IMG/VR virus record: IMGVR_UViG_3300030116_004792
Coordinates: 1 to 39,348 of that record
From: a virus
Length of the DNA: 39,348 nucleotides
Direction: 5' to 3' (one strand)
The position numbers and the translations under genes were made by a program. Position 1 is the first letter of the stretch. Every line of letters begins with the position of its first letter. This document shows, in pieces, positions 119-27,050 of the stretch. The notes under the pieces were generated by a model. It saw nothing but the letters and a program-made list of their open reading frames with translations. It was not told the origin of the DNA and ran no database searches.

Positions 119-3100
119 TTAGGCAGTAGTAGTATAAGTGCCAGAAAGCGCGAGTCTACCGTCACTATCATCCCAAACTTGACCGGGATTCAAATGAGTA
201 CGACTGCCGCTGGCGGGTTCGCCAAGTAAAACAATGTAAGTAGCACCTTGCTCTATGTAAGCATGGTAAACACTGTTTCCTAGGTTGAATTGCCACGCAA
301 CAGTTACTGCATTATCGATATTGCCTGTACTGGTTGCAGTAAATGGAAGTCCTTCAACTTCAGCGTAAGCATCGCTGCTACTACCAGAAAGTGAGCTAAG
401 GTCGATGTTGATATAAAAGTGAACTGTGTTACCAATTTTTGTGTATCTACCTGCTTGATTATTGTAAGAAGCAGTGAACCCTGTATTAATTGATGGTGTA
501 AATGTACCCTCTTCATAGTCGTCGAGAGCGTTGGCTTGAGCTGTGTCACCATTAAAAGAAAGGCCACCACTAGCTTGGAAGCGAGCTTTTTCTGCGAACC
601 CGCCAGTACCTACGCTATTAGTTGTGCCGATCCTTAAACCACCGTTGTATGGATAAAGAAGAGCTGGTGTATTGACGGTGGAGTCGCCTGAGTAAAAACC
701 AAACCATGCACTTCCACTTGCACCTTCAGCAAACAAACCGCTTACACCACTTACCCCTTTAATTCGGAGAGTTGAACCAAAACCTATTGTTGATGGGCTT
801 GTTTCGTTGATACCCACATTCCCTGCATTGTCAACCCTGATTCTTTCTACGCCTTCAGTGTCAAGCGTGATATGACCGTTGCTGCCAGTATCAACACACT
901 CAACGCTTGTGTTGCCTTCGCTAATTGAATCACTCGAACCACCACCGCCTGAAGCATCTTGCCAAGTTGGAGCGTCGTTACCGTTGCTGGTAAGAACCTG
1001 ACCGCTGGTGCCGTAGTTCGATGCGCCTTCAATCGCCCACGCACCAGTTGATGTAATGCGAAGTCGCTCTGTAGCCGCAGTAGAGAACTGCAATGAATCA
1101 CTACTGTGAGCATATTGAATAATTCCTCGGTAACCACCAGTATCATTAGTAGTTGTATCGGCAAAAACAATACCGCCAGTGCCGCTGGTTGATGTTGTTA
1201 TTGCTTGATAAGTTGCACTACGACTTGTGCTTCCAATTTCAATAAGCCTATCGCCGTGGACAGAAGTTGTCGTTGTTCCAATAAGAAGTCGGCCAGCACT
1301 ATTGACCCGCAATCTCTCTGTACTGCCAGTCCATAAAGTTAAATTATCGCCAATGTAGCCAACATATCCACCAGAAGCACTAGAGTTGACGAAATTTATA
1401 TAGGAAGCTGACGCAGAAGTTTGTACTTTTAATTGAGTGCCAGAGGATCCAGAAAGATGCAAGGTATGCGTCGGGCTGGTGGTGCCAATGCCGACATTTG
1501 ACGTAAAGTAAGCAGAGCCATCACTACCAATTTGTGACTTTACAGTACTACCGGAATAGCCTCGGAAGATAGGGCTGCTGTCAGTTCTACGAATGTAAAC
1601 AGCGCCACTATCGTATAGGTTAATTCCAGCAGTTGATGCGTTTGGAGTGTTGAAATTGGCTACGGATAGAGTTTGATTGCCGAAACTTGGGCTGATCTTT
1701 GTGCCAGCAATGGCTGCACTGCTGCTGACCTTGGCGTTAGTGACAGCACCGTCGACCAGCTCTGACGTGTCAACTGTGTCAGCGCCGGGCTGGCCAATGT
1801 CAACCGTCGAGCCAATGGTGACGATAAAGTGGCTTGCACCAGATGCAGGTGCAGCAGCAAAGATGATGTCGTTGTTGTTAATTGCAAAGCCTTCAGACGG
1901 CTGGCTAGTGCCGCTGTTTGGCTTTTGAATAACACCGTTAACGCTAACCAGCATTTGCTGGGCGTTGGCGCCAGCGTTGCTAAGGGTGAACCGATAGGCG
2001 CTGCCGTTGAACGTGGCAGATCCGCCGCCTGTACCACCTGACGACGACAGCGTGTTGATAAAGAAGTTGCCGACGGACTGCACTTCCTTCCACGCAGAAG
2101 TGCTGGTGTCGTACACCTTCATTTTGTTGGCAGTCTTGTCGTACCAGAGATCGCCTTCGTCTAGATCTGTGGTCGGCGCATTGTCTGATACGCGATAGCG
2201 AGCGTTGAAATCATTGATGTCATCGCTGAGCTGAACGACGTCAGTCTCTTTAGCAATCAGCTTGTGATAGGTGTAAGTGTTAAGGGTGGTAGTGGTCTGC
2301 ACCTGCAGGCCCAGGCCGGCGGCCAGCGTGCTGCTTTGCAGGCTGCTGGGAAAGCCGTTGATTGTGACTGTGACGTTGCCAGTGGTGCGCCCAGTGGTGC
2401 TTACACCGCTGGCATCAACAACAACGCCACCTGCATCAGCAATCGACACCACCGTGCCAGCGTTGTCGCTGGGGTCAGGGTTGGTTGTCGGAAAGCTGGT
2501 TTCGTTCGGAATAGCGACAAAGCCGCCCAGGGCGTTGAGCAAGCCAGACACAAACGTGTTGACTGCTGAGCTGGTGGGGATGTCGTTGGTGTTGGCAGGC
2601 GTCAGCGTGCTGCTAATCGTCTTGCCATCCAGCTGGTTCAGCTCTGCTGTAGATGCAGTCAGGCCGTCAGTGACGTTGAGCTCGGTAGTGGTGGCAGTGA
2701 CGCCGTCAAGAATGTTGAGCTCGTTAGTGGTAGACGTGACACCATCCAGCTTGTTCAGTTCTGCAGTATTGAGCGTGGCGCCATCAAGCACCTGCACTTC
2801 TGTCTGAGTCAAATCAGCAAGGGCAGATGCTGTGCCGCTCTGCATTGTCGACAGTTCAGTCAGCTCAGAATCCAAAGGCTGCTTGCCATCAATCTGGTTC
2901 TGGATTGCAGAGGTGACACCGTCAACAAAGTTCAGCTCTGCCGTTGTTGCAGTCACGCCGTCCAGCTTGTTGATTTCCGCAGCTGTCGCAGTCACGCCAT
3001 CAAGCGTGTTCAGCTCTGCTGTGGACGCAGTAACCCCATCAAGCTTGTTGATCTCAGCAGCAGTTGCCGTGACACCATCAAGGATGTTGAGCTCAGCCGT

Positions 3101-3769
3101 ACTGGCGGTCACGCCGTCCAACTTGTTTAGCTCAGCTGTGTCAGCAGTGACGCCATCTAATTTGTTGAGCTCTGCTGTAGACGCAGTAATCCCATCAAGG
3201 GTGTTTAGCTCTGCTGTGGTGACAGTCGCCCCGTCAAGAATCTGTGTCTCTGTTTGAGTCAGGTCCGCTAACGCACTGGCAGTGCCAGACGACATGGTCG
3301 CCAGCTCAGTCAGCTCAGCGTCAACTGGTTGGAAGTTGGTGTCGACGTAGTTTTTGGTGGCTGCATCCTGCGCCCCTGTCGGGTCAGATACGTTGGTCAG
3401 TCGCTGGTTGCCAAGCGTCGGCAAGCCAGTGGTGCTGCTAATTGTGACGACCTGCTTCTGCGCATCGTCTAGCTCTTGGTCAAGGTAGAGCTGCTGCAAT
3501 GCGTTGGTGTCTAGGTCAGCAGCCGTCAGCGTTGAGCCGTCGGTGTAGTCGACCAGGACGTTGTCGGCGGGCGTGACTCGACGTACCTCCACCCGTACGC
3601 CGTTGGCAGGTGCCGAGGACAGCTGCGCTGTGGTGTCGTTTGCAAAGGTAAAGGTGGTGTCGACGTAGTTGACGAAAACCTTGACGTGCTCCTTCCTGAT
3701 GTAGGGAAAGCCAATGGTGTACTGAGTGGCGCTGCCATTGCCGGTGTAGACGTTGTATGCGTAGGGCAT
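119..3769 (-). CDS. T7 gp17-like tail fibre, 1216 aa, with 13-residue repeats
   Basis: Adhesin that probably contacts the host surface. Residues 1 to about 150 resemble the N-terminal domain of T7 gp17, which attaches the fibre to the tail tube. Residues about 183-385 are a tandem series of a 13-residue unit with core AELNxLDGVTA, interrupted by a second copy of a block containing SGTASALADLTQTE. The middle has cyanophage-style shaft motifs (GIGTTSP, RLLIGTTT, ERLRI). The last 110 residues begin with YEEGTFTPSIN and contain YTKIGNTVHFYI, a C-terminal domain common in fibres of aquatic phages. The gene starts two bases after the giant internal virion gene and is followed by the second fibre module across the contig junction. 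T7 gp17 is 553 aa, so this fibre is long. Host receptor unknown. Confidence 0.93.
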   Translation of the reverse strand: MPYAYNVYTGNGSATQYTIGFPYIRKEHVKVFVNYVDTTFTFANDTTAQLSSAPANGVRVEVRRVTPADNVLVDYTDGSTLTAADLDTNALQQLYLDQELDDAQKQVVTISSTTGLPTLGNQRLTNVSDPTGAQDAATKNYVDTNFQPVDAELTELATMSSGTASALADLTQTETQILDGATVTTAELNTLDGITASTAELNKLDGVTADTAELNKLDGVTASTAELNILDGVTATAAEINKLDGVTASTAELNTLDGVTATAAEINKLDGVTATTAELNFVDGVTSAIQNQIDGKQPLDSELTELSTMQSGTASALADLTQTEVQVLDGATLNTAELNKLDGVTSTTNELNILDGVTATTTELNVTDGLTASTAELNQLDGKTISSTLTPANTNDIPTSSAVNTFVSGLLNALGGFVAIPNETSFPTTNPDPSDNAGTVVSIADAGGVVVDASGVSTTGRTTGNVTVTINGFPSSLQSSTLAAGLGLQVQTTTTLNTYTYHKLIAKETDVVQLSDDINDFNARYRVSDNAPTTDLDEGDLWYDKTANKMKVYDTSTSAWKEVQSVGNFFINTLSSSGGTGGGSATFNGSAYRFTLSNAGANAQQMLVSVNGVIQKPNSGTSQPSEGFAINNNDIIFAAAPASGASHFIVTIGSTVDIGQPGADTVDTSELVDGAVTNAKVSSSAAIAGTKISPSFGNQTLSVANFNTPNASTAGINLYDSGAVYIRRTDSSPIFRGYSGSTVKSQIGSDGSAYFTSNVGIGTTSPTHTLHLSGSSGTQLKVQTSASASYINFVNSSASGGYVGYIGDNLTLWTGSTERLRVNSAGRLLIGTTTTSVHGDRLIEIGSTSRSATYQAITTSTSGTGGIVFADTTTNDTGGYRGIIQYAHSSDSLQFSTAATERLRITSTGAWAIEGASNYGTSGQVLTSNGNDAPTWQDASGGGGSSDSISEGNTSVECVDTGSNGHITLDTEGVERIRVDNAGNVGINETSPSTIGFGSTLRIKGVSGVSGLFAEGASGSAWFGFYSGDSTVNTPALLYPYNGGLRIGTTNSVGTGGFAEKARFQASGGLSFNGDTAQANALDDYEEGTFTPSINTGFTASYNNQAGRYTKIGNTVHFYINIDLSSLSGSSSDAYAEVEGLPFTATSTGNIDNAVTVAWQFNLGNSVYHAYIEQGATYIVLLGEPASGSRTHLNPGQVWDDSDGRLALSGTYTTTA
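2620..3240 (-). repeat. About 13 tandem 39-bp units inside the tail fibre gene
   Basis: On the coding strand the unit encodes T-A-E-L-N-x-L-D-G-V-T-A-x. Third positions differ between copies, so protein sequence is conserved more than DNA. A non-repeat block at about 2760-2900 splits the array, and a second version of that block lies near 3235-3320, pointing to an internal duplication. The pattern fits a trimeric rod whose length can change by gain or loss of units. Confidence 0.85.
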
Positions 3770-3771
3770 GG

Positions 3772-6700
3772 TCAGTTCAGAGCGTCAATGAAGGTTTGGG
3801 CTCCAGCAGGCGCAGCACGCTGGATGTCAAGTGATGTCCTGCCCTTTATGTAAGCATTGTCAGCCCGTCTTTGCCTGGCTTCAGTCAGCTCAGCTTTGAG
3901 CGCCGGGCTTTCCTCTTCAAGCAACAGCTTTGCCTCTCTGGCATATCTGTTAAACACCTCTTTAATTCTGGTCAATCGCACTGATTGGTAGTCCTCAGAA
4001 GGGCGAGTGCGGTCTGCCTCGTTGCCACCGATTGGCGTTGCCTTGTAGGTGATGTCCCTAGTAATAAGGTCGCGGATCTCTTCTGCCAGCAGCTTGCCTT
4101 CAGGGTGTGGCGTGGTGCCCCTCATGCGTACGACCTGAGTGCCAAGCACCTCCAGGCGGTCGAGCTCCTGCGGAGACAGCACGCGATTAGGCAGCTCTGG
4201 GCCAAACGCAGTGTCAGACCACCATGTCTCCATGGAGCCCTGGCCATACAGACGACGCAGCTCGACGTCGATCGGATCGTCAGACAGCACCCGAGTGGGG
4301 AACGCGGATGTAGGGCTGAACATGTTGTAGGCGCTGCGCAAGAACCATTGATCTTCAGGAATCAGGTTCAAACCCAATGGCTGCGGCATGGGAATGGCTG
4401 CGCCTGTAAACGGGTGACGCTGCGGCGGAAACTCCTCGCTTGCGCCAGGCAAGCGCATGCGCATCATTTGCAAAGTTTGCAGCGGGATGGCAAGGAAGGG
4501 GTTGTCAGTAGCAGGACCAGGCGGCTTGAGCTGAGGGCCAACGCGTGCGGCAGCAAACGTGCTTGGCATAAACGCACGCAGGTTGGTTGAAATGTATTTA
4601 GTTACTGCGTTTACTCTGCCTTCTTTTTTGCCAAACCTGCTGTTCTCAATTATGTCAGAATACAAATCAATAAGCCGACGAAATGGCTCAAGAATTTGTG
4701 AGTTAAATTTAGCCGGACCAAGCTCACGAGCTGTGTGCCAAATTGCAGCTTGCACTTGCGCAGCAACAGTTTCAGCCTGCTCAAAAGGTACGTTTTCAAC
4801 CATTTCTTTGTACTCGCCAAGCATGCCAAAAATTGTGGCAAGTTGATCTAATGCACTGAGCCTAAATTGGGGCGTAAATTTATCAGTGCCAGGAATCCTG
4901 AATGAAATTGAACTGCCCTGATAGCCAGTGTATTCAGCCTTTGCTCCTGTATAGCGTTCACGCCAATTAGTTGGATCAAATCCAGTAACGCGGATGTAGT
5001 CAGATTGCAGCAACATCAAGCCGCTTGCCATTGCAAACGTGCCAAGCGCTGCATCGCCAACAGCTCTGTACCGCGTAAATTTGTCTTCACTGTGCAAGTC
5101 GCGCCACAGCGTATCTGTCAACAATCCACCGCCAGGCGTCATGCGCATGGCTGCTTTAAGAATGTCAACTGGCCCACGCGGCAATGCGTAGATCACACCG
5201 GCAAGCGGGTAATCATTTACAAATTTGCCGGCTGCGCGAGACGGAGCCCATAGCGCTGCCATTGCTGGGCGCCCTTCATAGCCACTCTTCATGTAGGCAA
5301 GAGCGCTGTTGTGAATGTCAAGCTGGTCAGTCAAGCCTTTTTGCCGTGCCTTACGGATGCCCATCTGATATGTGCGCGGCTCATGCACAACATCAAGAGG
5401 ATCAGTAAACGCGACGTAATCCATCACGTTCTTTGCGTGAATACCAGTCAGCGCACCTTTCTTAATTACTGCACCGTTAGGCATGGTGACGTCACGGAAT
5501 TGCTTCTGCAGCAACCGCTCTGCTTCAGCATTGGCGTAATCCCATACTTCTTTAGAGCCAGGCTTGCCAACGCCAGTCTGCACTGCATGCTCCAGCTGCT
5601 CATCCATCAATCGCGCCCATTCAGCTGAAGGGCCGACCAGGCCGTTGATGAACGTGTCGATCATTGTGATCGGACGGCCAACAACAGCTTTCATGCCGCG
5701 TGCTGCAGCGCCAGTCGCGTCTCTTGCCACTGACCGTGGCGTTGCATTGCGAATGTAATTAACAGCAATTGCGACAAAGTTTGGGTTGTTGCGGTCCATG
5801 TACCACTGACCGTCCTGAATCTCATCTATCTGAATGTCCTGCAAGTTGCCTTGCTTAGGCCCATTAGCGAGCCGGCGATCCATGCCGATGTAGTCAACGC
5901 CCAGGTTTACAAAGGCTTCGTTGTGAATAAACGACGAGCCGGTAAGACGCAGTGCGTAGTTGAGATTAGAAGCATATTTGGCGTACATGCGGAAGCCCAG
6001 GCCAGTGGCTTGCGTAGCAGCCTTTGCCTCAGCAAATCGCCCTGTTGCGGCAAGGCGTGCTGCATCGACAGCGCCACCGTAAATAGTGCTTACTGGCATG
6101 GTGGCTGCTCTAAACGCGCTGCCCAGCAACATTGTCCAATGAGTCCGCGGCGCAGACAGGATCGACATGACATGGAACTGCCTGATGTTCTGCGCAATGC
6201 CTGAGCCAGGCGCGGCATCACGCATGTGGTTAAGCATGTTGGCCTGATATTTCTTGTCGTTTTTTGCCTGTATGGCAACCTCGGCCAGCTCTTTCATTAC
6301 CTCGTCAGTGCTCGCTGTTGACTGGTTTTGTTTGACAGCGTTGACTACCTCTGCAGGCAGAACCCGATCAAGCATGTTGCCTGCATTAGCTGTCGTCTCG
6401 ACAAACTGCTCTGCTGCTGATTTGGCTGGCTGGTTAGGCGGCACGGCTTCCGCTTCCGAGCCAACGACACGGTTTGCAGCATTGACGTCGTAGATGACAA
6501 CTTCGTCGACCGGCCCGCCTTGGCGGCCGATCATCTCAGGCTCATGCCGCAGGCCCTGGTAGCCCAAGCCGGTGACGTAGTCCTGCAGCCCTGCTTTCTG
6601 CGCAGGCGTCAGCTCAAGGCCGTTGGGCCCTTCCCGCATGCGGCCTAAGTCAAGGTCGTTGAGCAGGTCGGCAAGATCCTTGTCCATGGACGGCAGGTCC

Positions 6701-9700
6701 ATGATCTTGATGTCCTTCTGCAGCGTGCCCTCAACCAGGGCGCCGCCGTAGCCAGCCATGTTTTCGTAGCCACTGGTGCTTGCTGTGAAATAGACACCGT
6801 CACCAAGAGGGCCAGCTGTTGGTTGCAAGCCTTCCGCAAGCGCAGCCTTGCCTGCTGCTTCTGTTGTGGCGTGCTGCAAGTTGACGCCAGGGATCAGCTT
6901 GGAGTTGAGGATGTTGGGGTCAGCATCCATCTGGGCAATGCGCAAGCGCTGGCCTGCCACTCGCGTCATCTCGGCGTATGCCGCGCCAATCTTGAGCGAG
7001 TCATTGATAGAGGCGTACAGCTTGCTTGCGGCAGACGCTTTGTCCGCTGCAGTTGTCGCGCCTGTGTAGTTAATTGCTGCAATCGCTGCGTCGTTGTTGG
7101 CAGCGTCCAGCAGGATCTGTGTTGCCCTGATAGAGCCAAGGTCATCACCTGCTTGCAAGTCACCGCGCAAAGCACGGTCTGCCATTTCAATTAGGCGGTC
7201 AGGGTCAGCGCCTGTTTCGCTCAGGATTTCAATGGCCTTGCCATTGATTTGCTCATCGGTATATGTGTCGCGACCAGTCAGGTCAGCACGATCTAAGAAG
7301 TCGCCAGAGATGCCGCGACGCACAGCATCAAAGGAAGCAGCAAGCTCGTCGTTAGTTAGTTCGATGTACCGGGTCTTGCCGCTGCGGCTGGCATAGCGAC
7401 GGATGTCGTCCTGCAGCAGCTCTTCAATTGTGATGTCGCCCTTCTTCAGGGCTTCCATGTTTTCAGCAATCTTGCGCGATACGTCGTCAGGATCAGGCAT
7501 CTGCACGGCCAGCTGTGGCTCCAGCTCCATGCCTTCTTCTGCGCGCCGCGCTGCAATGTCGCCTTGGTACGCGTTTTCAAATACGTCGTCCCAGGTTTGA
7601 TAACCGCGGCCTAGCAGCCAATTACCAGCAGCTTCTGCGATCTGCGAAATCTTGGCAAAAGGTTGTGCCCAAGTGGCTTTTTTGTAATTCTCGCCAAACT
7701 TCCACCAGCCACTAAAGGCCATTGCCTGTACTTCTTTGCTTCCAATTTGCCCACTTAGTATTGCTTGAGCCTGCTCTGGGACAGTCTTCGCCGCTAATTC
7801 CCGAATCTGGTTATCTGCATTGCGAAGAATTTGTAGCTCACCCTTTGACAGAAAAAGATCTTGTAGGCGGTGAAATGCCTCGTGATATGCGGTTACAAGT
7901 GTACGAGTAAAAGAAAGCGGGTTTGATTTATGGAACATTGCGATCTTGATTAGATCGTCTGCTGCCTTTTGGCCGCGAACAAACATGCCTGAGGCTGAAT
8001 AAGCCTGACCCTTCTTGCCGCCGTAAGCACGAGCCTGAGCAGGAGTGAACTGGCCCTCGATCCTGTCGACAAACTCGACGTTGACGTCAACGCCTGCAAC
8101 CCGCGTGGCCTCTTGCAATAGCAAGGACTTTTCTTGCGACGTAAGAACGTTGCGGCCTGTGTAGTCCTGACCCAGCTGGCCTGCGCCACGGGTGCTGCTG
8201 ACAGGGGGGAGCTCAGCCAACTGCCCGCCTTCACGCCAGACACCGCTGTCGGGAACGGTATAGGTGTCGCCGGTTGCTTTGCTGCCAAGGTCAGCACGGA
8301 TGCGAGCACCGGCTTCCCGAATCACGTTGTCATGCAGGCCCAGGTCGTTCTGCAGGTAGTTCAAAAACTTGTCCCTGTTTTTAGAGGGACGGCCTGACGT
8401 TTTAGTGACGCTGTAGATAAGTGCATCTACGTCTGACTCCCACTGCAGCACTGTCGAGCGGTAGCGCGGTGAGCCGTACTTAAACGGCACTGTTGGTGGT
8501 GTCTGTGGCGTAGACACTGCACGCGGCGCCTCTGTGTTTGCTTCGAGCCAGGCAATTGCTTGGCGGGCGTAGACGTCGTTGTCGAGCTGTCTTTTTGTGC
8601 GATTGAAGTCAGCTTTTTTAGGCGCTACAGGCGCAGTGCCTTCGGCAAACGCTTCAGGGTTGCTTACAAGCTCAGCAACTTCGTCGTACTGCCTGTTGAA
8701 CTCTTGCAGCTTTGCCTCGCGATTAGCCCTTGCACGATCACCAAGCAGCATTTTTTGCAGCCTGGTTCGCTCAGCAGCTCGCTCTACAGGGCTCATTGCC
8801 TTCAGCTTTGCAATCTGCCTTTCGTTCAGGTTGCTGTAGGCAGCATTGTCGACAGGCTGCTCAACGGTCGGCTCGTTAATGCGTGACGGGTTAGACGTAA
8901 TCCGGCCGCCAGACGCTTGCAACTTTTCAAGCACCCGGTCAAATTCTTCCTGCGACAGGTGCTGCAAGCTTCTGCGCAACTTCTCTACGTCAATCTCTGG
9001 ACGTGTCGGCTGCGGCTCAGGAGCAGGATCAGCTTCTGCTCGTGCTTCTGGGGCTGCGGGCTCTGGGCGTGGTGCAGGCGCAAACTCTTCTTGCAGCACA
9101 CCCCGCAGTCGCTGCAAGTTTTCGCGGACGACAGTCACTGCCTTTTTCTTTGGCGTGACCTGTGCCGCAAGTTCTGTAATTAGGTCGCTAAGCGGGCCGA
9201 CCATGTTTGCCCGCGCATTAAACACAGCTGCGCCCTGCATGGCTTCTTGCCGCGCAGCGCCTGACGCTTGGACATTGATGACATTGCCAGCAGCTTCAAG
9301 AAAGCCAGCCTTGCGCTCGCTTGCCGCTGCGGCCAAAGCGTTGATCTCAGCTTTCAGCTGCGAACGAATTGCAACACGCACTTCCAGCTGGCGGCCAAAA
9401 TCACTGCTCAGCAATTGGTCAAAGCCTGGCAATGCCAACGCATTGGGATCAGTGGCTGCTTCTACCTGAGCAAAACGAGCAATGTTTGCCGCTTCTGCAG
9501 TCTTTTGCGCCGACCACTTCTGTTTCTTTGCAGCTGCTGCCAGATCACGCATAACCTGCTCTTCAGCGCCACTGCTGCCAATAGCTGCGCCAATGTCGAC
9601 CGTCATGTCGCCACGAGCGACCTGGTCAAACAGTTCCTGCGGCAATTTGGACAGAGGAGCAGCTTTAAGAAACAGTCTTTCTGCCGCCTCGCTACGGATC

Positions 9701-11361
9701 GGCATGCCCTGGGCGATCATGTCCTCGGCGGTCATTGCCGAATCACGCATAATTTTTGCTGCGTCGACGGCAGTGCCGTTGCCCTCAGAAATGTTCTGCA
9801 TTGCGCCTTTAATCCGCGCTTCTGCAGCATTTGCGGCTTCCATAAACCGCACATTTATCATTTTGCGGCCGGCTCTAATAGCCGCGTCTAGGCGGTTGTG
9901 GCCATTAACGACATAAACAACACCATCCTCAGGATCACGCCAAACGCTGATGACATTGGCTAGGTCTGGATTAAAGACTTCAGTGCCAGCAAGCGAGCCG
10001 CTCCGGCCTGTTTTTGTTAGGCGGCCAGCTTCTTTGAACTGAAAGCGCGGCGGGTCAATGCCAATATCAACAACGGGATACGCGCCGACAGTGCCAGCTG
10101 CGTAGTCATCGCGGGTGGGCGGCGCCAACTCTGCGACAGCAGGCTCTGGCAGGTCGTCAGGGACAGTCTCGCTGGGTGCAGTTGCCTTGTAGACAGCCTC
10201 AATGTTTTCGACGCGTTCCTGCGCCTCAATCATCTGGTCAGCTGCCTGCTGCAGCCGCTGCATGCTGTCGTCGGCCTTAAGAGTGTTGACCTCTGCTACT
10301 AGGTCACGCTCAACCTCTGGCGTGCGGCCCGTCATGCGCACAGGCGCCGCAGGTGGCTCAGGCGCTGCTGTTGCCTCTACGTCGACAACTTGCTGTTCTT
10401 CAGCAACCCTGTCCAAATTCTTGGCCAGCTTGACTTCAGCAACGGCGCGGTCAGCCTGCGCTTGCACATAGTCGTTGGCCAGTCGCCGGCCAATTGGGCC
10501 GCCAACCATCTCCAAGCCAGCGCCAAGAAACGTGCCAGCAAATGCGCCCATAAACGCACTCTTCAGCCGTTTTTCGCCAACCGTGTCGTCGTCTGTTGCA
10601 GCTAAATAGTCGTTGACAAAACCTTCAGCGAACGTGCCATCAGTGCGCGATTTGATTGCAGCGCCAAAATTTTCGTAGGGGTTTTCAAAGTAAAAATCAT
10701 TGATCGCGCCAGGCAGGTAGCCCTCTTGCGCGCCTTCAATTGCGCGGCCGATCGCCCTTTTTCTTACGCCCTCAAAGCCTGGCGCACGGCTTGCCCTCAT
10801 CTGTGCGGCGTACTTAGGCCTAATTGGGATGCGCGGTGTCTTGATTCCGCCTGCCTTAAGGCCACTGGCAATGGCAGCAAACTGCAGGCCTGACGCCGTT
10901 AAGTCGCCAACAAAATCCATTACCGGGTTGCCGCTTGGTTGATACAGCGGCTTACCCGTTACCGGGCTGGGCGGGTTTGGCTCTGCTGCAGACGGGGCTC
11001 TTAGGCCAACGCGATTCGCAAAGTCCCTCGTCAGATCAGCTTTGTTGAGCTCAGTCGCGACAAAGTTCTGCAGGTTCTGCGCAACGCGGCTTGCTGCCAC
11101 ATCGAGCGTGTCACGCACGACGTTGCTGCCTGGCTCGCCAAGCAACACGCTGGCTGGATCTGACAGCGCTTGCTGAATCTGCGCGCCAATGCCGCCCTGG
11201 TCCTCGGCCGCGGCCTCTGTCAACTCCTCGACGACTGGCTGCGCTGCCTCAACAACAGCGCCTAAACCCGGTTGCTGCTCTTGTTCTGCGGGCGCCTCAG
11301 GCTCCATGACCTGGGGCATAACAAACGAGTAAACGCCGTTTTCGTCTTGTACCAGTGGCAT
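3772..11361 (-). CDS. Giant gp16-like internal virion (ejection) polyvalent protein, 2529 aa
   Basis: By position (after gp14/gp15-like genes, before the fibre) this corresponds to T7 gp16, an internal core protein ejected into the cell, but it is nearly twice as long. Visible segments: a Pro/Glu-rich N terminus; a ParB-like nuclease-type segment at about 430-560 with NGHNRLDAA (N486-R490); a zinc-metallopeptidase-like segment at about 1085-1260 with HEAFH (H1160, E1161, H1164); an ADP-ribosyltransferase-like segment at about 1490-1630 with GDGVYFT (from G1520) and VDEVVIYDV (from 1618); and a C-terminal region of about 860 residues with hydrophobic stretches, like the large C-terminal region of other podovirus ejection proteins. 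This assortment matches the published idea of phage polyvalent proteins. Catalytic activity is inferred from motifs only. The transglycosylase domain found in T7 gp16 is not here but in the neighbour at 11362-14184. Confidence 0.88.
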   Translation of the reverse strand: MPLVQDENGVYSFVMPQVMEPEAPAEQEQQPGLGAVVEAAQPVVEELTEAAAEDQGGIGAQIQQALSDPASVLLGEPGSNVVRDTLDVAASRVAQNLQNFVATELNKADLTRDFANRVGLRAPSAAEPNPPSPVTGKPLYQPSGNPVMDFVGDLTASGLQFAAIASGLKAGGIKTPRIPIRPKYAAQMRASRAPGFEGVRKRAIGRAIEGAQEGYLPGAINDFYFENPYENFGAAIKSRTDGTFAEGFVNDYLAATDDDTVGEKRLKSAFMGAFAGTFLGAGLEMVGGPIGRRLANDYVQAQADRAVAEVKLAKNLDRVAEEQQVVDVEATAAPEPPAAPVRMTGRTPEVERDLVAEVNTLKADDSMQRLQQAADQMIEAQERVENIEAVYKATAPSETVPDDLPEPAVAELAPPTRDDYAAGTVGAYPVVDIGIDPPRFQFKEAGRLTKTGRSGSLAGTEVFNPDLANVISVWRDPEDGVVYVVNGHNRLDAAIRAGRKMINVRFMEAANAAEARIKGAMQNISEGNGTAVDAAKIMRDSAMTAEDMIAQGMPIRSEAAERLFLKAAPLSKLPQELFDQVARGDMTVDIGAAIGSSGAEEQVMRDLAAAAKKQKWSAQKTAEAANIARFAQVEAATDPNALALPGFDQLLSSDFGRQLEVRVAIRSQLKAEINALAAAASERKAGFLEAAGNVINVQASGAARQEAMQGAAVFNARANMVGPLSDLITELAAQVTPKKKAVTVVRENLQRLRGVLQEEFAPAPRPEPAAPEARAEADPAPEPQPTRPEIDVEKLRRSLQHLSQEEFDRVLEKLQASGGRITSNPSRINEPTVEQPVDNAAYSNLNERQIAKLKAMSPVERAAERTRLQKMLLGDRARANREAKLQEFNRQYDEVAELVSNPEAFAEGTAPVAPKKADFNRTKRQLDNDVYARQAIAWLEANTEAPRAVSTPQTPPTVPFKYGSPRYRSTVLQWESDVDALIYSVTKTSGRPSKNRDKFLNYLQNDLGLHDNVIREAGARIRADLGSKATGDTYTVPDSGVWREGGQLAELPPVSSTRGAGQLGQDYTGRNVLTSQEKSLLLQEATRVAGVDVNVEFVDRIEGQFTPAQARAYGGKKGQAYSASGMFVRGQKAADDLIKIAMFHKSNPLSFTRTLVTAYHEAFHRLQDLFLSKGELQILRNADNQIRELAAKTVPEQAQAILSGQIGSKEVQAMAFSGWWKFGENYKKATWAQPFAKISQIAEAAGNWLLGRGYQTWDDVFENAYQGDIAARRAEEGMELEPQLAVQMPDPDDVSRKIAENMEALKKGDITIEELLQDDIRRYASRSGKTRYIELTNDELAASFDAVRRGISGDFLDRADLTGRDTYTDEQINGKAIEILSETGADPDRLIEMADRALRGDLQAGDDLGSIRATQILLDAANNDAAIAAINYTGATTAADKASAASKLYASINDSLKIGAAYAEMTRVAGQRLRIAQMDADPNILNSKLIPGVNLQHATTEAAGKAALAEGLQPTAGPLGDGVYFTASTSGYENMAGYGGALVEGTLQKDIKIMDLPSMDKDLADLLNDLDLGRMREGPNGLELTPAQKAGLQDYVTGLGYQGLRHEPEMIGRQGGPVDEVVIYDVNAANRVVGSEAEAVPPNQPAKSAAEQFVETTANAGNMLDRVLPAEVVNAVKQNQSTASTDEVMKELAEVAIQAKNDKKYQANMLNHMRDAAPGSGIAQNIRQFHVMSILSAPRTHWTMLLGSAFRAATMPVSTIYGGAVDAARLAATGRFAEAKAATQATGLGFRMYAKYASNLNYALRLTGSSFIHNEAFVNLGVDYIGMDRRLANGPKQGNLQDIQIDEIQDGQWYMDRNNPNFVAIAVNYIRNATPRSVARDATGAAARGMKAVVGRPITMIDTFINGLVGPSAEWARLMDEQLEHAVQTGVGKPGSKEVWDYANAEAERLLQKQFRDVTMPNGAVIKKGALTGIHAKNVMDYVAFTDPLDVVHEPRTYQMGIRKARQKGLTDQLDIHNSALAYMKSGYEGRPAMAALWAPSRAAGKFVNDYPLAGVIYALPRGPVDILKAAMRMTPGGGLLTDTLWRDLHSEDKFTRYRAVGDAALGTFAMASGLMLLQSDYIRVTGFDPTNWRERYTGAKAEYTGYQGSSISFRIPGTDKFTPQFRLSALDQLATIFGMLGEYKEMVENVPFEQAETVAAQVQAAIWHTARELGPAKFNSQILEPFRRLIDLYSDIIENSRFGKKEGRVNAVTKYISTNLRAFMPSTFAAARVGPQLKPPGPATDNPFLAIPLQTLQMMRMRLPGASEEFPPQRHPFTGAAIPMPQPLGLNLIPEDQWFLRSAYNMFSPTSAFPTRVLSDDPIDVELRRLYGQGSMETWWSDTAFGPELPNRVLSPQELDRLEVLGTQVVRMRGTTPHPEGKLLAEEIRDLITRDITYKATPIGGNEADRTRPSEDYQSVRLTRIKEVFNRYAREAKLLLEEESPALKAELTEARQRRADNAYIKGRTSLDIQRAAPAGAQTFIDALN

Positions 11362-14184
11362 TTACTCGCCCCGCAGGATTCGCAACCCATTTTGGTAGTG
11401 ACCACCGCCAGGAAGCAAATCTTTTAGTGCGCTGTTGACGCTGTTGCCGTTGGCGTCTTTTGCGTTCATGTAGTCCTCGCCGTTGGGACCACGCCCATCT
11501 GCGTTGCCAATCAGGATCGCGGCGTAGATGCGAGACATGCCGTCACCAGGGCGCACTCCACGGTCAATGAGGTATTGAGCGGCAGCCTGTGCTTGCTCCT
11601 CAAACGTGCTGTTTGCGTTGACGCCGTACGCCCTTTGGTTGTCAGGGCTGAATTGAATCAGGCCGGAGTAGCCAAACCGGTTAGTGATCGCAGGGTCAAA
11701 GGTGCCAATCGTCTCGTAAGACATAGCAGCAGCCAAATCATCGGGACGGATGCCAACACGCGCAGCTGCGGCCCTAATTGCCTGGGCGCGGCTGGTGTCT
11801 CCAATAATTGGCGGAGGTGGCGCGATAGCCGCCTGCGCAGGAGCGCCTGGCAAGACAGAGCCGACGAGGTAAGTGCCGATGCCAAGCATGCGATCAATCA
11901 TCGAAACTTTCTGCTGTGGCTGTGGGCGTTCCTGCAGTTCAACGTCGTATGCGCCACTTGGGAACTGCTGATTAAGGATGGTTTGTACTTGATCTGTCGG
12001 AATCTCGTTTTTAATAAGTTCGCCTTCTAGAAACGGTCGCAAGCCTCCATAGGCTTTAACAGCTTCAGAAATATGCGGCGGCAGCGGTTGCCCAGTTGCT
12101 GCCATATTCATAATGTTACTAACAGCTCCTTCAGAAAATATTGGGAATGGGCCGGCAGCCGTTGATTGCAAATTTTCCTGCAATTGCCTGTCAGTTTGCT
12201 TGTCAAAATCTTGCTGCAGCGCATCAAGACTTTGATATTGTGCAAAGCCAGGATCTTTTTTTGTTTCAGCTAAACCGTACTTAACCGCACCGTCTTGGCC
12301 GGCAATCATGTCGGTAAAACGCTTAGGAAAAGCCTCTAAACCTGATTCGCCACTTTGCTCATACAACTCCCGCATAAGCGCTAGGCCGTCTCGCACCATT
12401 TGCGGACGACGGATTTCAAATAACTGCTCTTCTTTGTCAGTAGATGAGCCGCCTAAGCTGCCTGAAGCAGTAGCTTTGCTTTTGTACTGAGCTAGGCGTT
12501 CGGCAATTGCTTCATTCATTGCTTTTACAGACGGCTTATACCGGCCTTCTCGCAAGCCACGCAACTGCTTTAGGTAAGTGCCACCAGTTTGTGGTGAAAT
12601 AAGGCGTTGATCTATTGCAGCTCTAACTCTGCTTTCTAATGTTTCTACACCGCGTGCATAAGGGTCATCAAGCAGTGTTGAAATATCTTTTTCTAAGCCA
12701 GAGAAAAAATCAACCTGAGCTTCTGCCCGCCAAGCCTTTGGAACATTTGTAGTACGCGTATTAAATTTTTGCATAACCATTGCTTGCAGCAAAGGGTCAT
12801 GGCCTAATTCCATAAACAATTCTGAGGATTTTTTTGCTTTTAATTCGTCGTAGCGCCGCATTGATTCATCAGTTGGCAGGCCATCTTCGCCAAACTCAAC
12901 TACTTCACTCAAGCCTCCTAAAGCGTCACTAAGTATCTGCTGCGCCATCAAGTCGCGCTGGTTGTCCTTCTCTGTCTTTGCGGCTGACGTAGCAGTGTTC
13001 CACTGCCGACGCAGTGTCTGCAAGTCCTGCGCATCCATCTGGTTGATGTAACGCAGCTTGTCGTTGACGCTGCCGTCAGCACGCCTGCGGTCGCCAACAG
13101 GGCCAACCATTAGGTTGCCCATCATTGCAAGAGCATCGTCAAAAGACTTTGGCCTGTTAGGCGAGTTGTTTAGTGCAGCAAAGTAATCAAATACAAAGTC
13201 TTTGCGCAGTGCATCAACCTTGTCCAACGACAAGTTAGGAATACCTTTGGGGCCAATACTTTCAAATGCTTCTTGCAGCTCCTCTGCTGCATCAGCTGCA
13301 GTCATCGTGCTGCCCGGAGCATGCAGCGCTGCAAGCGTGGTGTTGATGACAGTGTTGGTCTGTGTTCTTATCTCGCCAAGCTGGTAGTCCATGTGCTGCT
13401 TGGCTTGCGTGCCCTTTGCCCCAGCAATTGCTTGAATAATGGTCGGCGCAAGTTTGCGGGCCTCTGCCGGCTGCAGCACGCGGTCGCCATACAGCTCTCT
13501 TTGCAGAATCTCCATAAACTCTGCGCTGTCAGGCTTTAGCGAGCGCAGCTGAATTTCACTACCGTCAGCAAGAGTGACAGACGGATTGCTTTGCACAAAT
13601 GAGCTGAGCTGGTAAGCGCGGCTCTGCACCTCAAGACGATCAAGCGTCCTCTGGTAGTACGGGTTGTTGTCAACTTTTGCCTGGTATCTAGTCAGCACAT
13701 CTTTTGCTTCCCTGCGCTCTTCTGGCGTTGCATCTGGATCATTTGCCGCTGCTTCAAGTTGACGCAGGCCGTTACGCAACTTGTTGTTAGCTGTAGTGCC
13801 AAACAGCGTGCCAGCTGCAGCTTCTTCGGCTTCAGCCTTGAGTGTTTCCGTTTCGCGTTTTTTGTAATCGAGAATCCCTGACGTTAAGGTTTTGAGGCTT
13901 GAATCAAAGTTGCCTAGCGACTCAGCAAGCCTGCGCAAATCGCCAACACTTGTTGGCTCTGGCTCTGTCTGCATTGCACCAAGGCGCACAGGCCCAGGTG
14001 CTTGCAATTCCGCAGGGCGAGAAAAGGTGTCAATAATTGACGCCTGTGGTTGAAGCTGTGGCGCCTCGATGCCGCTGAACTGGATTGGCGCGTTGCCTGA
14101 TTGCTGGCTACCTAGACCAACAGTGCGTTGTGAGCTTTGGCGAGTAGTAACGCCAGTGTTCTTGCCAAGTGAAAGCTTTGCCAT
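11362..14184 (-). CDS. gp15-like internal virion protein with C-terminal transglycosylase-like domain, 940 aa
   Basis: Internal core protein expected to leave the capsid at infection and help DNA cross the cell envelope. Residues 1 to about 790 are mostly helical with many Gln/Ala/Glu-rich stretches and no clear motif. Residues about 800-940 look like a lytic transglycosylase (SLT-type) domain: an ALAxAMSYET-like segment with candidate catalytic Glu824, then FGYSGLIQFSP and an AQAAAQYLIDRG helix. In T7 this domain sits at the N terminus of gp16; here it is at the C terminus of the preceding protein, so the domain has a different partner. The gene begins two bases after the gp14-like gene and stops directly before the ATG of the giant gp16-like gene, so translation is probably coupled. 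It is the only peptidoglycan-degrading candidate I see in the genome. Confidence 0.85.
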   Translation of the reverse strand: MAKLSLGKNTGVTTRQSSQRTVGLGSQQSGNAPIQFSGIEAPQLQPQASIIDTFSRPAELQAPGPVRLGAMQTEPEPTSVGDLRRLAESLGNFDSSLKTLTSGILDYKKRETETLKAEAEEAAAGTLFGTTANNKLRNGLRQLEAAANDPDATPEERREAKDVLTRYQAKVDNNPYYQRTLDRLEVQSRAYQLSSFVQSNPSVTLADGSEIQLRSLKPDSAEFMEILQRELYGDRVLQPAEARKLAPTIIQAIAGAKGTQAKQHMDYQLGEIRTQTNTVINTTLAALHAPGSTMTAADAAEELQEAFESIGPKGIPNLSLDKVDALRKDFVFDYFAALNNSPNRPKSFDDALAMMGNLMVGPVGDRRRADGSVNDKLRYINQMDAQDLQTLRRQWNTATSAAKTEKDNQRDLMAQQILSDALGGLSEVVEFGEDGLPTDESMRRYDELKAKKSSELFMELGHDPLLQAMVMQKFNTRTTNVPKAWRAEAQVDFFSGLEKDISTLLDDPYARGVETLESRVRAAIDQRLISPQTGGTYLKQLRGLREGRYKPSVKAMNEAIAERLAQYKSKATASGSLGGSSTDKEEQLFEIRRPQMVRDGLALMRELYEQSGESGLEAFPKRFTDMIAGQDGAVKYGLAETKKDPGFAQYQSLDALQQDFDKQTDRQLQENLQSTAAGPFPIFSEGAVSNIMNMAATGQPLPPHISEAVKAYGGLRPFLEGELIKNEIPTDQVQTILNQQFPSGAYDVELQERPQPQQKVSMIDRMLGIGTYLVGSVLPGAPAQAAIAPPPPIIGDTSRAQAIRAAAARVGIRPDDLAAAMSYETIGTFDPAITNRFGYSGLIQFSPDNQRAYGVNANSTFEEQAQAAAQYLIDRGVRPGDGMSRIYAAILIGNADGRGPNGEDYMNAKDANGNSVNSALKDLLPGGGHYQNGLRILRGE

Positions 14185-14186
14185 GA

Positions 14187-14891
14187 CTAGCTCCTGATGT
14201 ACTTACCGCCGTCCCACTTGAAGCCAGCGTCTTTAATGCCTGCTTCAATGCTTAAGCCTGTGCTGACGCCGCCAATAGCTGAGTTGACGCCAGCCAAAAC
14301 GTACGGCGTACTACTAGGCGCAGCCCTCTTAATTGGTTCTATTGGGTCAAGCACGGTTTGCTGAATGTATGGCGTTACTGATGCAACTCTTGCTGCTCGC
14401 TCTGCTGCTGCTCCTCTCTTTTGCTCGTCTGACTGTCTTCCAAAGAAAGCAAGATTAGTGTCACTGTAAAAATCAAACTGAGCGCGTTCTCTGTCCACAT
14501 CCGCAAGCAAGCTGTCGATAACGTTGCCGACACGGCCTGAGGCCAAGATTGCGCCACGCTGTTCAGCTGCCTCCAAAGCAGCCCCTCTTTTTTGCTGGGC
14601 CTTCGCTTGCTGGCGCTCCATGTAAGCAAGGTTGACCTGCCGGATTTTGTTGGCCTCAACTGTCCTAGCCAGGTCTTCTGTTTGCTGCATCTGCTGTTCA
14701 CGAGCCAAAGCCTTCTGCGCTTCGCTCTGTCGCGATGCCTGGGCCTGCAGCTTGCTGTATTGAAACTGCTGCTCAGCTACTCGGTTCTGATAGTCAATTG
14801 CCTCCCGCTGCGCTTGGTACTGCGCTTGCGCTTGAGCAACACCTAGGCCGGCGCTAATGATGCCGAGAACAATTGGGACCGGACTACACAT
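14187..14891 (-). CDS. gp14-like internal virion protein, 234 aa
   Basis: Probable internal core protein, the counterpart of T7 gp14, which forms a channel in the outer membrane during ejection. It opens with MCSPVP and a hydrophobic segment (about residues 6-24), followed by a long Gln/Ala/Arg-rich helical region (about 25-115) predicted to be coiled coil, a middle part with RVGNVIDSLLAD, and a glycine-rich hydrophobic patch near 195-215. T7 gp14 is 196 aa with the same hydrophobic start and Gln/Ala-rich body. Gene order gp13-gp14-gp15-gp16 is preserved and the gene lies two bases from each neighbour. Assignment rests on position and composition more than on residue identity. Confidence 0.8.
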   Translation of the reverse strand: MCSPVPIVLGIISAGLGVAQAQAQYQAQREAIDYQNRVAEQQFQYSKLQAQASRQSEAQKALAREQQMQQTEDLARTVEANKIRQVNLAYMERQQAKAQQKRGAALEAAEQRGAILASGRVGNVIDSLLADVDRERAQFDFYSDTNLAFFGRQSDEQKRGAAAERAARVASVTPYIQQTVLDPIEPIKRAAPSSTPYVLAGVNSAIGGVSTGLSIEAGIKDAGFKWDGGKYIRS

Positions 14892-14893
14892 GG

Positions 14894-15418
14894 CTAGATC
14901 CTCACGAACTCATAGAACGTGCGCTGCTCTGGCCCAAAGTTGTCGTGCCGGTTGATAAAAGTAAATCCCATCCAGCGCAGCCAACGCAGGTGAACAGTGT
15001 TGCGGGCGTCTACAAAGTTGAACAGCACCGGATACTTGTCTTGCAAATTTGCGAGGTGAATCCGCGACTGGCGCAAAAACTCCCACTTATCTGCAACGTC
15101 AGTGAGCATTTCACTGCGGCCTAGCATCCAGATCCGACCCGCTGTTGAGCCGTCAGGGACGACGCCCCACATGCCAATCGGACGGCCATGGCGACCGACA
15201 ATAGTCATGCAAGGCTTGCTCATGAAGAAAGAGTAGAGCAAGGACCCGTGAGGCGATAGCCCTGATTGCGCCTTTACTTCTTCGACATCTGGCTCGCGCA
15301 TGCCATCAGCAACGTATGAGACGTCACTAATGACAGAGATTCGTTGATAGGCGCGGTTTACAGCCTCTTGGCCCGGCTGTGATACCACCCTTCCCATTCG
15401 GCTGATTGCACTCTGCAC
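14894..15418 (-). CDS. gp13-like internal virion protein / GNAT-fold, up to 174 aa
   Basis: Counterpart of T7 gp13, a virion assembly factor with an acetyltransferase-like fold. The C-terminal half matches the T7 protein in pattern: FNFVDARNTVHLRWLRWMGF here against the T7 stretch WNYVWVGNTSHIRFLKTIGA, followed by an F-rich beta strand and FYEFVRI at the end. The start is uncertain. The ATG at 15418 overlaps the upstream tail-tube gene by 61 bases, and an internal ATG at 15397 overlaps less; neither has a strong Shine-Dalgarno. The first 25 residues do not look like the family. No obvious acetyl-CoA binding loop is preserved, so enzymatic activity is not claimed. Confidence 0.78.
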   Translation of the reverse strand: MQSAISRMGRVVSQPGQEAVNRAYQRISVISDVSYVADGMREPDVEEVKAQSGLSPHGSLLYSFFMSKPCMTIVGRHGRPIGMWGVVPDGSTAGRIWMLGRSEMLTDVADKWEFLRQSRIHLANLQDKYPVLFNFVDARNTVHLRWLRWMGFTFINRHDNFGPEQRTFYEFVRI

Positions 15419-20595: not shown

Positions 20596-20820
20596 TTATT
20601 TGATCTGGATAACGCCGTCGTCATCAACAGTGACGACAGGCTTTTCTACCTCAACAACCTTGCGCTCAGGAACTTCGCCGATCTGAATAACTTCGTACTC
20701 AGCCGGCGGCTCCGGCGATGCCGGCGGGCCCACTAGGGATTCCGGCGGCTCCGACTGCGTCTGGGAGGGCGTTGGGCTGGGGCCCGGGGACTCCGCCTTC
20801 TTCCGTGAACTGGGGGCCAT
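20596..20820 (-). CDS. Small acidic/proline-rich protein, 74 aa, overlapping the portal gene
   Basis: Unknown protein encoded between portal and scaffold. The ATG at 20820 has GGAG six bases upstream and lies inside the portal gene, so 122 bases are read in two frames on the same strand. The overlapping half gives a low-complexity Pro/Ser/Glu-rich sequence (SPGPSPTPSQTQSEPPES); the unique half gives YEVIQIGEVPERKVVEVEKP and VVTVDDDGVIQIK, which looks like real beta-rich protein. A longer start at 20853 exists but lacks a ribosome-binding site. Function unknown. Confidence 0.7.
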   Translation of the reverse strand: MAPSSRKKAESPGPSPTPSQTQSEPPESLVGPPASPEPPAEYEVIQIGEVPERKVVEVEKPVVTVDDDGVIQIK

Positions 20821-22453
20821 AGGTAGCTCCTGGTTGGGTGTAGTTCTTGGCAATTTGTGCAGCGGCTGGGGACTTCATCATGTCCATCAGCTGTTGCTGC
20901 TCCATTGACTGCTGCTGCGCTTGTGCAGCAGCTTCCGCTTCCTGTTGTAGCTGTTCTTTTGTTTTAACCAAGTTCGTTGTATCAATCGAGCCGCTGGCAG
21001 CCAGGCGTCGCAACGCCTCATCAACGTTGATGTATTGCATCATCACCTCAGGGCCAAGTGTGTTCTGGGCTGCTGTGATGAACTCAATCAGCTTGTTGCG
21101 GTCGTCACCGCGGCCAATGGCTTCGAGACCTGTCACAGGCTTCGGGCTAACCAACGGCTCGCCGTTGCTGCCATTCGGGAAGGCAGGCAGCTTGCGTTGC
21201 TTGTTCAAAATGTGCATCAGCCTGCGCACCAACGGCAGCTGCAACTCTTGCGTCAGGATGGAATACAGGCCGCCAATTGACGCCTCTAGCTCTTGGCTCA
21301 TGTAGCGGATTTCTTCCGCTGTCACGCGTTCACCTGGGCGCTGAATTGCAGTGTTGAGCATGAACGCAAACTGCAAACGACCCTCGATGCGGTCAATTGT
21401 TGCGCTTGCAATTTGCAGATCTTGCCCCTTCTGGCTCTGGATGACTGTGACGTCCTGGGCGTTGCCCTGCACGATCGCGCCATTGGCTGCACTAGCCAGC
21501 GTGCGCGGGCGGGTGGTGCCGTTGGGATTAACCAAAAACAGGATCTTGGCCGCGGCAGCACTGCCTTCTAAAACTGCCTGATACAGCGACTCCAGCGCCA
21601 GCAAATCACCGTAGTACTGCTCAACGTATGAGCGACCATACTCTTCGGTGTCCGTGCGATCAAAGCGAAGGGGAATCCAGGGGCTGTTTTCCTCAGAGCT
21701 CATGCCATGAGTGCCTGGGATTTCACGTCCCTTGCACTCCTGATACCAGTGGCACTGCCCGTCGTAAAACTTGACGCAGGTGTAAATCTTCAGCGTCCGC
21801 TGCGCCGGTTCGTCTTCGTCGTATTCATCGTCCTCATAATCCTCCTCCGAGTCGATGAATCCCGTGGGAAGGGCCTCTGGGTAGACCTCTTCCTCAACCA
21901 CGATCTCAGTGACGTGGCCCATAGGGTCACGCACAAGCACATAACGATCCAGATGGATAACTCGTATTCCTTCTTCGGAGACGTACAGCAAGGCGTTGCC
22001 GCCGACGAGCAAATGCTTAAAGGCTTCGTGCAATGAGGCGCGGCCATTGGCCAGCTCCATTACTTGCATCACTGCATGCTCAACCTTTACCAGCGCGCTG
22101 TCTAGTTCGGTCTTAATCTCAGGCCCTGCCTGCTCAATGCGCAACGCGAGGCCGTCAACCTCCAACTTAAAAAACGCACTGTTGGGCGGGAACAGGGTGA
22201 TAAGCAGGCGGTTTGCCAGGTAATTAACCCCGCGAGCTCCAAGGCTTTGATATGGCGTCTTGAAGCTGCCGTGATCGCCGTAGTTCTCGTCTGGGATAAG
22301 GCCAGGCAGTGTGACCTTGCTGCAATCACGGGCGCGTTGCAGGAACGGCGAGCGGTTGCCATGCAGCTGCTCATAGCGCGCTGCAGCTGAACGCCCACTA
22401 CGGCCGTAATCGCTGGGTTGGCGATCGACCTTGCTGGTCAGATTTAGGCGCAT
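20699..22453 (-). CDS. Portal / head-tail connector protein (gp8-like), 584 aa
   Basis: Dodecameric portal through which DNA enters and leaves. Family features include RARDCSKVTLPGLIPDE near residue 40, YQSLGARGVNYLANRLLITLFPP near 70-90, and GERVTAEEIRYMSQELE near 380, all typical of T7-like connectors. T7 gp8 is 536 aa; the extra length is an acidic insertion near 200-215 (DSEEDYEDDEYDEDEP) and a Gln/Gly/Pro-rich tail. The final 40 codons overlap the 74-aa gene. The large terminase is three genes upstream. Confidence 0.96.
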   Translation of the reverse strand: MRLNLTSKVDRQPSDYGRSGRSAAARYEQLHGNRSPFLQRARDCSKVTLPGLIPDENYGDHGSFKTPYQSLGARGVNYLANRLLITLFPPNSAFFKLEVDGLALRIEQAGPEIKTELDSALVKVEHAVMQVMELANGRASLHEAFKHLLVGGNALLYVSEEGIRVIHLDRYVLVRDPMGHVTEIVVEEEVYPEALPTGFIDSEEDYEDDEYDEDEPAQRTLKIYTCVKFYDGQCHWYQECKGREIPGTHGMSSEENSPWIPLRFDRTDTEEYGRSYVEQYYGDLLALESLYQAVLEGSAAAAKILFLVNPNGTTRPRTLASAANGAIVQGNAQDVTVIQSQKGQDLQIASATIDRIEGRLQFAFMLNTAIQRPGERVTAEEIRYMSQELEASIGGLYSILTQELQLPLVRRLMHILNKQRKLPAFPNGSNGEPLVSPKPVTGLEAIGRGDDRNKLIEFITAAQNTLGPEVMMQYINVDEALRRLAASGSIDTTNLVKTKEQLQQEAEAAAQAQQQSMEQQQLMDMMKSPAAAQIAKNYTQPGATYGPQFTEEGGVPGPQPNALPDAVGAAGIPSGPAGIAGAAG

Positions 22454-25463: not shown

Positions 25464-25500
25464 GCCGGCTTCACCCCCCTTCGGGGTGGCCACTGCCGGC
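25464..25500. repeat. Nested inverted repeat in the hub
   Basis: Outer arms GCCGGC / GCCGGC and inner arms CACCCC / GGGGTG with loop CCTTC form a two-level hairpin. No T run follows on either strand, so it is more likely a protein-binding or RNA structure element than a simple terminator. Confidence 0.6.
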
Positions 25501-25527
25501 CACATCGACTAGGGTGGTGGGGTCCAG

Positions 25528-25558: not shown

Positions 25559-25565
25559 GGGTACG

Positions 25566-25599: not shown

Positions 25600-25626
25600 G
25601 GCCGCCCAGGCTCAAACAGGTCACCT

Positions 25627-25845: not shown

Positions 25846-25848
25846 TCC

Positions 25849-26589: not shown

Positions 26590-26598
26590 CGGCAACCT

Positions 26599-27048: not shown

Positions 27049-27050
27049 TC

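Follow-up and report, generated by a model that had tools for sequence, protein, structure and literature searches.

A putative gp16-type ejection protein with ParB-like, zincin-like and ADP-ribosyltransferase-like modules in a T7-like marine podovirus

What kind of protein is encoded by a single gene that takes up 19.3% of the DNA of a small phage, and in which phase of the infection would it act? The window, i.e., the whole stretch of 39,348 bases analyzed here, whose ends repeat 99 bases, contains on its minus strand one ORF with an ATG start (3772-11361) which encodes 2529 amino acids according to the ORF list and its translation. Based on this ORF, its full-length relatives and synteny, the whole gene was assigned as encoding an internal virion (ejection) protein in gp16 position that carries polyvalent cargo. 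The original prediction had estimated a genome share of about 19 percent and had described ParB-like, metallopeptidase-like and ADP-ribosyltransferase-like (ART-like) segments on the basis of four motifs. The share agrees with the computed value, and NGHNRLDAA at residue 486, HEAFH at 1160, GDGVYFT at 1520 and VDEVVIYDV at 1618 are found exactly as claimed. In a simple composition model, 0.011 occurrences of HEXXH, 0.005 of NGHxR and 0.00004 of GxGVYFT are expected by chance in a protein of this size. Searches of Pfam, NCBIfam and PDB sequences with the window protein directly yielded nothing useful, and the domain signals were obtained only via relatives and profiles. All three motif regions are kept in relatives with 37-38% identity, and the key residues are retained in tens of relatives, down to 23-40% identity.

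Gene order and the C-terminal ejection core

Upstream of the 2529-aa gene and on the same strand, genes for portal, scaffold, major capsid protein, gp11, nozzle and gp13-like, gp14-like and gp15-like proteins are located. The gp13-like protein (14894-15418, minus strand) was assigned by Pfam PF11090 (7e-7) and phrog_308 (2.7e-34), the gp14-like internal virion protein (14187-14891, minus strand) by Pfam T7_gp14 (3.4e-8) and the gp15-like internal virion protein of 940 aa (11362-14184, minus strand) by matches to phrog_4928, phrog_21656 and phrog_196 as well as by its position. Directly downstream follows a T7-type tail fiber gene (119-3769, minus strand; Pfam Phage_T7_tail, 3.2e-33). With gp11, nozzle and the gp13-like to gp15-like genes on one side and the fiber gene on the other, the gene indeed occupies the gp16 position proposed beforehand, and the order gp11, nozzle, gp13, gp14, gp15, gp16-position gene and fiber recurs in all podovirus relatives checked, within the reach of their contigs. 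A phrog_21 "portal protein" label for the 2529-aa product (4e-45) was rejected: the match spans residues 356-741 only, which correspond to the ParB module, and the wrong name has been passed on by fused proteins. The actual portal gene lies at 20699-22453.

The plus strand carries genes for an integrase, a T7-type RNA polymerase, a gp2.5-like protein, a primase/helicase and an exonuclease. Although the window encodes RNA polymerase, primase/helicase and exonuclease, a gene for DNA polymerase A was not found in it; MPP-C cyanopodoviruses likewise lack this gene (PMC9860041). The integrase of the window phage (28052-28951) is unlike what is seen in an obligately lytic phage. Relatives of the combined ART and core region were not found in bacterial genomes, so there is no prophage context that would point to a host. 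Several further regions were noted. Between the divergent late and early blocks, about 1.6 kb (25500-27100) contain no convincing gene and no Rfam match. Two plus-strand ORFs in different frames (35003-35365 and 35014-36081) overlap, may both be real and recall nested lysis genes; the longer one matches phrog_848/phrog_1755. Moreover, a small beta-rich protein with a signal-peptide-like start (36347-36709, minus strand; phrog_417) adjoins phrog_7802 and a second tail fiber gene at 37080-39092.

The ejection core comprises residues 1654-2502 (3856-6402, minus strand), is mostly helical and was delimited by the internal virion protein matches of relatives. The C-termini of relatives match proteins annotated as internal virion protein or internal virion protein D from Roseobacter CRP phages, HTVC011P, HTVC119P, S-CBP1/2/3, S-TIP28 and ProddE. 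Thirteen of 31 relatives match phrog_6651 (internal virion protein, up to 3.5e-29), a profile search reaches AGK86663 of S-CBP42 at 1e-16, and Foldseek against BFVD retrieved the internal virion protein of S-CBP2 (3e-12). Foldseek returned no PDB match for the core, for which the model is poor (pLDDT mostly <60) and uninformative on the fold. Judged by sequence, homology to gp16/internal virion protein D extends over the C-terminal ~850 residues, and the 2529-aa product as a whole is almost certainly a gp16-type ejection protein. From the head, T7 gp16 passes into the cytoplasm; universal conservation and DNA binding are described for its C-terminal part (PMC8954989). Because gp16 enters the cytoplasm, the homology of the core to T7 gp16-type proteins gives good reason to call the protein ejected; it probably enters the host cell before the phage DNA does. 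Delivery into the host, as the original prediction had it, is thereby backed by the homology of the C-terminal third to T7 gp16-type internal virion proteins. While its three domain types were recognized correctly, the gp16-C core and the swapping of modules among relatives had been overlooked.

The N-terminal region (residues 1-429; 10075-11361, minus strand) was defined by the conservation profile and is best conserved at ~130-300. It has no family match, also not to the N-terminal transglycosylase domain, which is a trait of T7 gp16 and is not universal. In the gp15-like protein, the C-terminus (~800-907) is lysozyme/transglycosylase-like, as concluded from phrog_4928 and phrog_21656 and a fold call made by eye on the sequence. 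The peptidoglycan cutter, which T7 gp16 itself bears, thus seems to have moved to the gp15-like partner in the window phage; a swap of the lysozyme-like domain between gp16 and gp15 is known from K1E (PMC8954989).

The three modules upstream of the core

Profile and structure searches together with conserved residues distinguish the ParB-like, metallopeptidase-like and ART-like segments as three separate domains in one protein, in line with the original prediction. The first of them, a ParB/Noc/KorB-like domain with helix-turn-helix (HTH), covers residues 424-629 (9475-10092, minus strand) with NGHNR at 486-490 and was assigned by Foldseek, VIA and profile. Foldseek matched these residues to ParB (7bnr, 5.1e-6; 6t1f, 1.1e-5), Noc (7nfu, 1.8e-5) and KorB (8qa9, 3e-4), the structural match by VIA reached Z 10-11, and the fold match extends over the ParB N-domain as well as the HTH of Noc/ParB/KorB. 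A profile of 30 sequences finds Noc (E 0.009) in an alignment that spans the GERR position and the HTH, and Pfam HTH_ParB is matched by 4 of 30 relatives (best 4.2e-5). We regard a ParB plus HTH fold of these residues as nearly certain. A helical continuation of the module (residues 630-759; 9085-9474, minus strand) is aligned throughout the ParB-carrying family and is helical in the model. The canonical CTP-binding motifs GERRxRA and ENLQR are absent; in their place GHNRLDA and QNIxEG are found, with only G487, R490 and N523 kept. Since GHNR replaces GERR and the Glu is thereby lost, CTP hydrolysis cannot be assumed, and the module is best described as ParB-like with uncertain CTPase status. 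A search for a parS-like repeated palindrome in the phage gave none above shuffles.

The second module, a zincin-like metallopeptidase domain, covers residues 1081-1270 (7552-8121, minus strand) with HEXXH at 1160-1164 and E1210 as likely third zinc ligand, and its assignment combines invariance, topology and VIA. An alignment of 23 sequences has no more than seven invariant columns, and four of them are the expected zinc and catalytic residues H1160, E1161, H1164 and E1210; the chance of finding these four among seven invariant columns is ~7e-7 in a calculation that takes no account of how closely the sequences are related. These residues are also conserved in a larger set, in 62/62 and 56/56 sequences where aligned. 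The model places HEAFH on a helix (model residues 728-746) and E1210 on a later helix (785-794) with several strands between them, which corresponds to zincin topology. VIA matched model residues 648-857 to lethal-factor-type zincins and PPEP-3 at Z 6-8, a score that is middling alone and agrees with the motif; the same fold link was drawn for polyvalent peptidases by Iyer et al. (PMC5512222). A zincin fold of the predicted gluzincin type is likely. The domain is flanked by long flexible linkers with low pLDDT in the model. Between the two module slots a conserved helical linker (residues 1279-1478; 6928-7527, minus strand) is found, which is kept in the relatives L050 (1014-1214) and L059 with differing modules on its flanks.

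Residues 1483-1642 (6436-6915, minus strand) form the third, ART-like module with the predicted triad H1497, Y1524 and E1620, as derived from profile, Pfam and VIA. The relatives show the motif YHGT...GxGVYF...E, which reads LQHAT...GDGVYFT...DE in the window protein. Pfam PARP is matched by 7 of 15 relatives (best 3.9e-7) and ART-PolyVal by four of the 15 (6e-4), and on the same motif the ART profile aligns to PARP3 and PARP10 (E ~0.02). Among the matches listed by VIA, 50/50 cover the ART segment (model residues 4-157), and all of them are ARTs or ART-type ejectosome/Tpt1 chains. The best of those listed is MbcT with a middling score (Z 7.7, rmsd 3.8, 124 aligned); diphtheria-toxin catalytic domains, NatT, ParT, PARPs and residues 1419-1599 of chain 9k3a_B from the cyanophage A4 pre-ejectosome are also among the matches listed. 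Foldseek with a 1050-aa model including the ART gave no PDB match at E<=0.001. Taken together, an ART fold of the H-Y-E class is very probable. Within the family the triad is conserved in 24/47 (His), 47/47 (Tyr) and 45/47 (Glu) sequences. In the P-SCSP1 clade the His of the first motif is replaced by Lys in 22/22 sequences (L022, L015 and 20 others) while Tyr and Glu stay, and the ART of this clade may be inactive or altered. For the window phage an active ART is predicted with modest confidence.

Pfam models of known polyvalent domains, ddrB-ParB (PF18763), MPTase-PolyVal and ART-PolyVal, did not match the window protein, although ART-PolyVal appeared weakly, below the cut-off, in 6/10 records of relatives. 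An identity as DdrB-like ParB or as MPTase-PolyVal was therefore rejected, and the modules of the window protein are regarded as separate subfamilies. The ParB-like claim of the original prediction thereby holds for the domain type and is refined to a ParB/Noc/KorB-type domain with HTH, distinct from the DdrB-like ParB of phage P1.

Exchange of modules among relatives

Within the phage collection, matches over most of the length of the protein were limited to 17 P-SCSP1 Prochlorococcus phages (87-90% covered, 37-38% identity), and IMG/VR searches added many further relatives. E-values from iterated profiles are inflated for sequences inside the profile; first-round and BLAST matches back the same placements for most of them. 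Full-length members found via ParB, the window included, have the architecture ParB-peptidase-ART-core in 23 cases, ParB-peptidase-core in ten, ParB-ART-core in one and ParB-core in two. In the ParB-ART-core member, L050, the ART sits in the peptidase slot. The two ParB-core members differ from each other: in L075, ParB is followed closely by an ART of another type (Pfam DUF3990/ART-PolyVal), and no enzyme was seen in L059. With the core as query, L229-L234, L240 and L243 were found to carry peptidase and ART and no ParB. L240 (residues 906-967, ORF at 3799) and L231 (residues 1050-1112, ORF at 3307) each contain, in addition to peptidase and the conserved ART, another ART-like stretch of a different kind (Pfam DUF3990/ART-PolyVal). 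The internal virion protein of S-CBP42 contains core and ART; ParB and peptidase were not detected in it. The distance from peptidase to core amounts to 380-393 aa in proteins with the ART and to 271-324 aa in those without it.

Turnover of this kind around a constant C-terminal core and a constant gene order fits exchangeable cargo. There is about an even chance that the gp16 core of many marine T7-like phages represents a general delivery chassis whose slots are loaded with phage-specific enzymes. Such a chassis would amount to a system of injected and exchangeable effectors in small podoviruses, the cultured Prochlorococcus P-SCSP1 phages included, with one slot ahead of the ParB region, a second between ParB and the helical linker, and a third between linker and core.

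Some relatives show additional features. L056/L058 have 566 extra residues between ParB and peptidase (residues 735-1298) with no family match, possibly a further module. In L016 (Nohivirus S31C1) the gp16-position protein (6426-10881) has 1484 aa with ParB and peptidase only, and the gene after it is a separate large one (10886-14323, 1145 aa); this is possibly a split version.

Possible roles and comparison with known systems

We consider it probable that in this T7-like marine podovirus, a relative of the Prochlorococcus P-SCSP1 (MPP-C) phages, the 2529-aa product represents the gp16-type ejection protein and has been enlarged by effector modules. By analogy to T7 gp14/15/16, the protein would be packed with gp14 and gp15 in the inner core of the head, exit the head first, pass the tail unfolded and refold in the cell. 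The gp16-C core would then serve as a hub at the inner membrane or in the cytoplasm, peptidoglycan cutting would fall to the gp15-like partner, and the modules would arrive in the cytoplasm before or together with the DNA. There, the ParB-HTH module would most likely bind the incoming phage DNA for protection or hand-over, the ART would most likely ADP-ribosylate some host target, and the peptidase would most likely free the modules by polyprotein cleavage or cut a host protein. An early function directed at the host is likely for at least one module. A purpose specifically in counter-defence is plausible and somewhat less than evenly probable; self-processing, DNA handling at entry and general host takeover fit equally well.

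Self-processing would mean that the giant polypeptide is cleaved by its own HEXXH domain, be it prior to packaging, inside the head or once ejected, so that the peptidase represents a maturation device and not a means of attack. It was proposed for P1 DdrB in the polyvalent-protein literature (PMC5512222), and it would suit both a giant protein that must traverse a narrow tail and a peptidase placed between long flexible linkers. However, L050, L059 and L075 are without the peptidase and keep the rest of the protein, so the domain is not required for maturation in all relatives, self-processing is not obligatory, and we hold it as a tentative explanation. For the ParB-HTH module, the alternative to a counter-defence enzyme would be an entry or DNA-handling module that clamps or tethers the incoming DNA like ParB or membrane-linked Noc. 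The fold match across ParB N-domain and HTH, the retention of R490 and N523, and the description of T7 gp16-C as a cytoplasmic DNA binder (PMC8954989) argue for it, but the exchange of GERR for GHNR makes CTP use uncertain, the phage offers no repeated palindrome, and the module is missing from some relatives. The chances of this reading fall slightly short of even.

A general host-takeover effector, for instance one that ADP-ribosylates RNA polymerase or translation factors, is possible to about the same degree as self-processing. T4 Alt is a packaged and injected ART that acts on host RNA polymerase (PMC9503650), and a T7-like RNA polymerase is encoded by the window phage itself, so that a shutdown of host transcription is conceivable; yet the turnover between close relatives presumably resembles an arms race more than a fixed takeover step. 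That the ART and peptidase segments are decayed remnants which serve as structural filler is improbable. The His-to-Lys replacement in the P-SCSP1-clade ART and the repeated loss of modules among relatives would agree with decay, but decay would not spare exactly H1160, E1161, H1164, E1210, Y1524 (47/47) and E1620 (45/47).

If this reading is right, infection by very abundant small marine phages would begin with the injection of a multi-enzyme protein, for which no separate early genes need to be kept. Although the MPP-C phages of Prochlorococcus are in culture and have been studied by cryo-EM imaging, no annotation exists for their largest protein. The present assignments provide it with testable parts, namely a predicted ParB-HTH DNA binder, a zincin and an ART on a recognized ejection core, and the relatives provide natural variants with or without each module.

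The closest isolates are the MPP-C phages of the P-SCSP1 type, in which the product of gene 21 (e.g., P-SCSP1c ULF49604) has 2571 aa, lies at the same gene position, shares 38% identity from residue 136 to the end and contains all modules in the same order. It differs in that it was deposited as hypothetical and has Lys for the ART His. The cyanophage A4 pre-ejectosome is reportedly a solved, capsid-packed ejection complex (PDB 9k3a, said to stem from Hou et al. 2025, PNAS). One of its chains is structurally like the ART segment, at Z 6.2 only and with no sequence match. S-CBP42 AGK86663 shares the gp16-type core and the same ART type but has 1610 aa and neither ParB nor peptidase detected. 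For P-SCSP1 gene 21, an internal virion protein had been guessed from size and position only (PMC9860041). The gp16-type internal virion proteins D of roseophages (CRP), pelagiphages (HTVC) and cyanophages (S-CBP/S-TIP28) have a homologous C-terminal core and the same place in the gene order, and reviewed gp16-like proteins range from 609 to 1337 aa (PMC8954989), compared with 2529 aa here.

Polyvalent proteins with such domain types, packaged ARTs (T4 Alt) and an N4 virion RNA polymerase with HEXXH are already known. The polyvalent proteins described by Iyer et al. in 2017, including N4 virion RNA polymerase and P1 DdrB, combine several unrelated domains such as zincin, ART and ParB-like domains in one protein of a late operon and were predicted to be injected (PMC5512222). 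The window protein likewise is a single polypeptide, encoded among virion genes, that unites effector or enzymatic domains of several unrelated types. It differs from them by its T7 gp16 core as base, and the terms "T7-like" and "internal virion" are absent from the text of that study (PMC5512222). In the open-licence literature consulted, this domain set on a T7 gp16 core, with variable slots and in small marine podoviruses including cultured isolates, is undescribed. The protein belongs with the polyvalent proteins and has a T7 gp16 core as its foundation.
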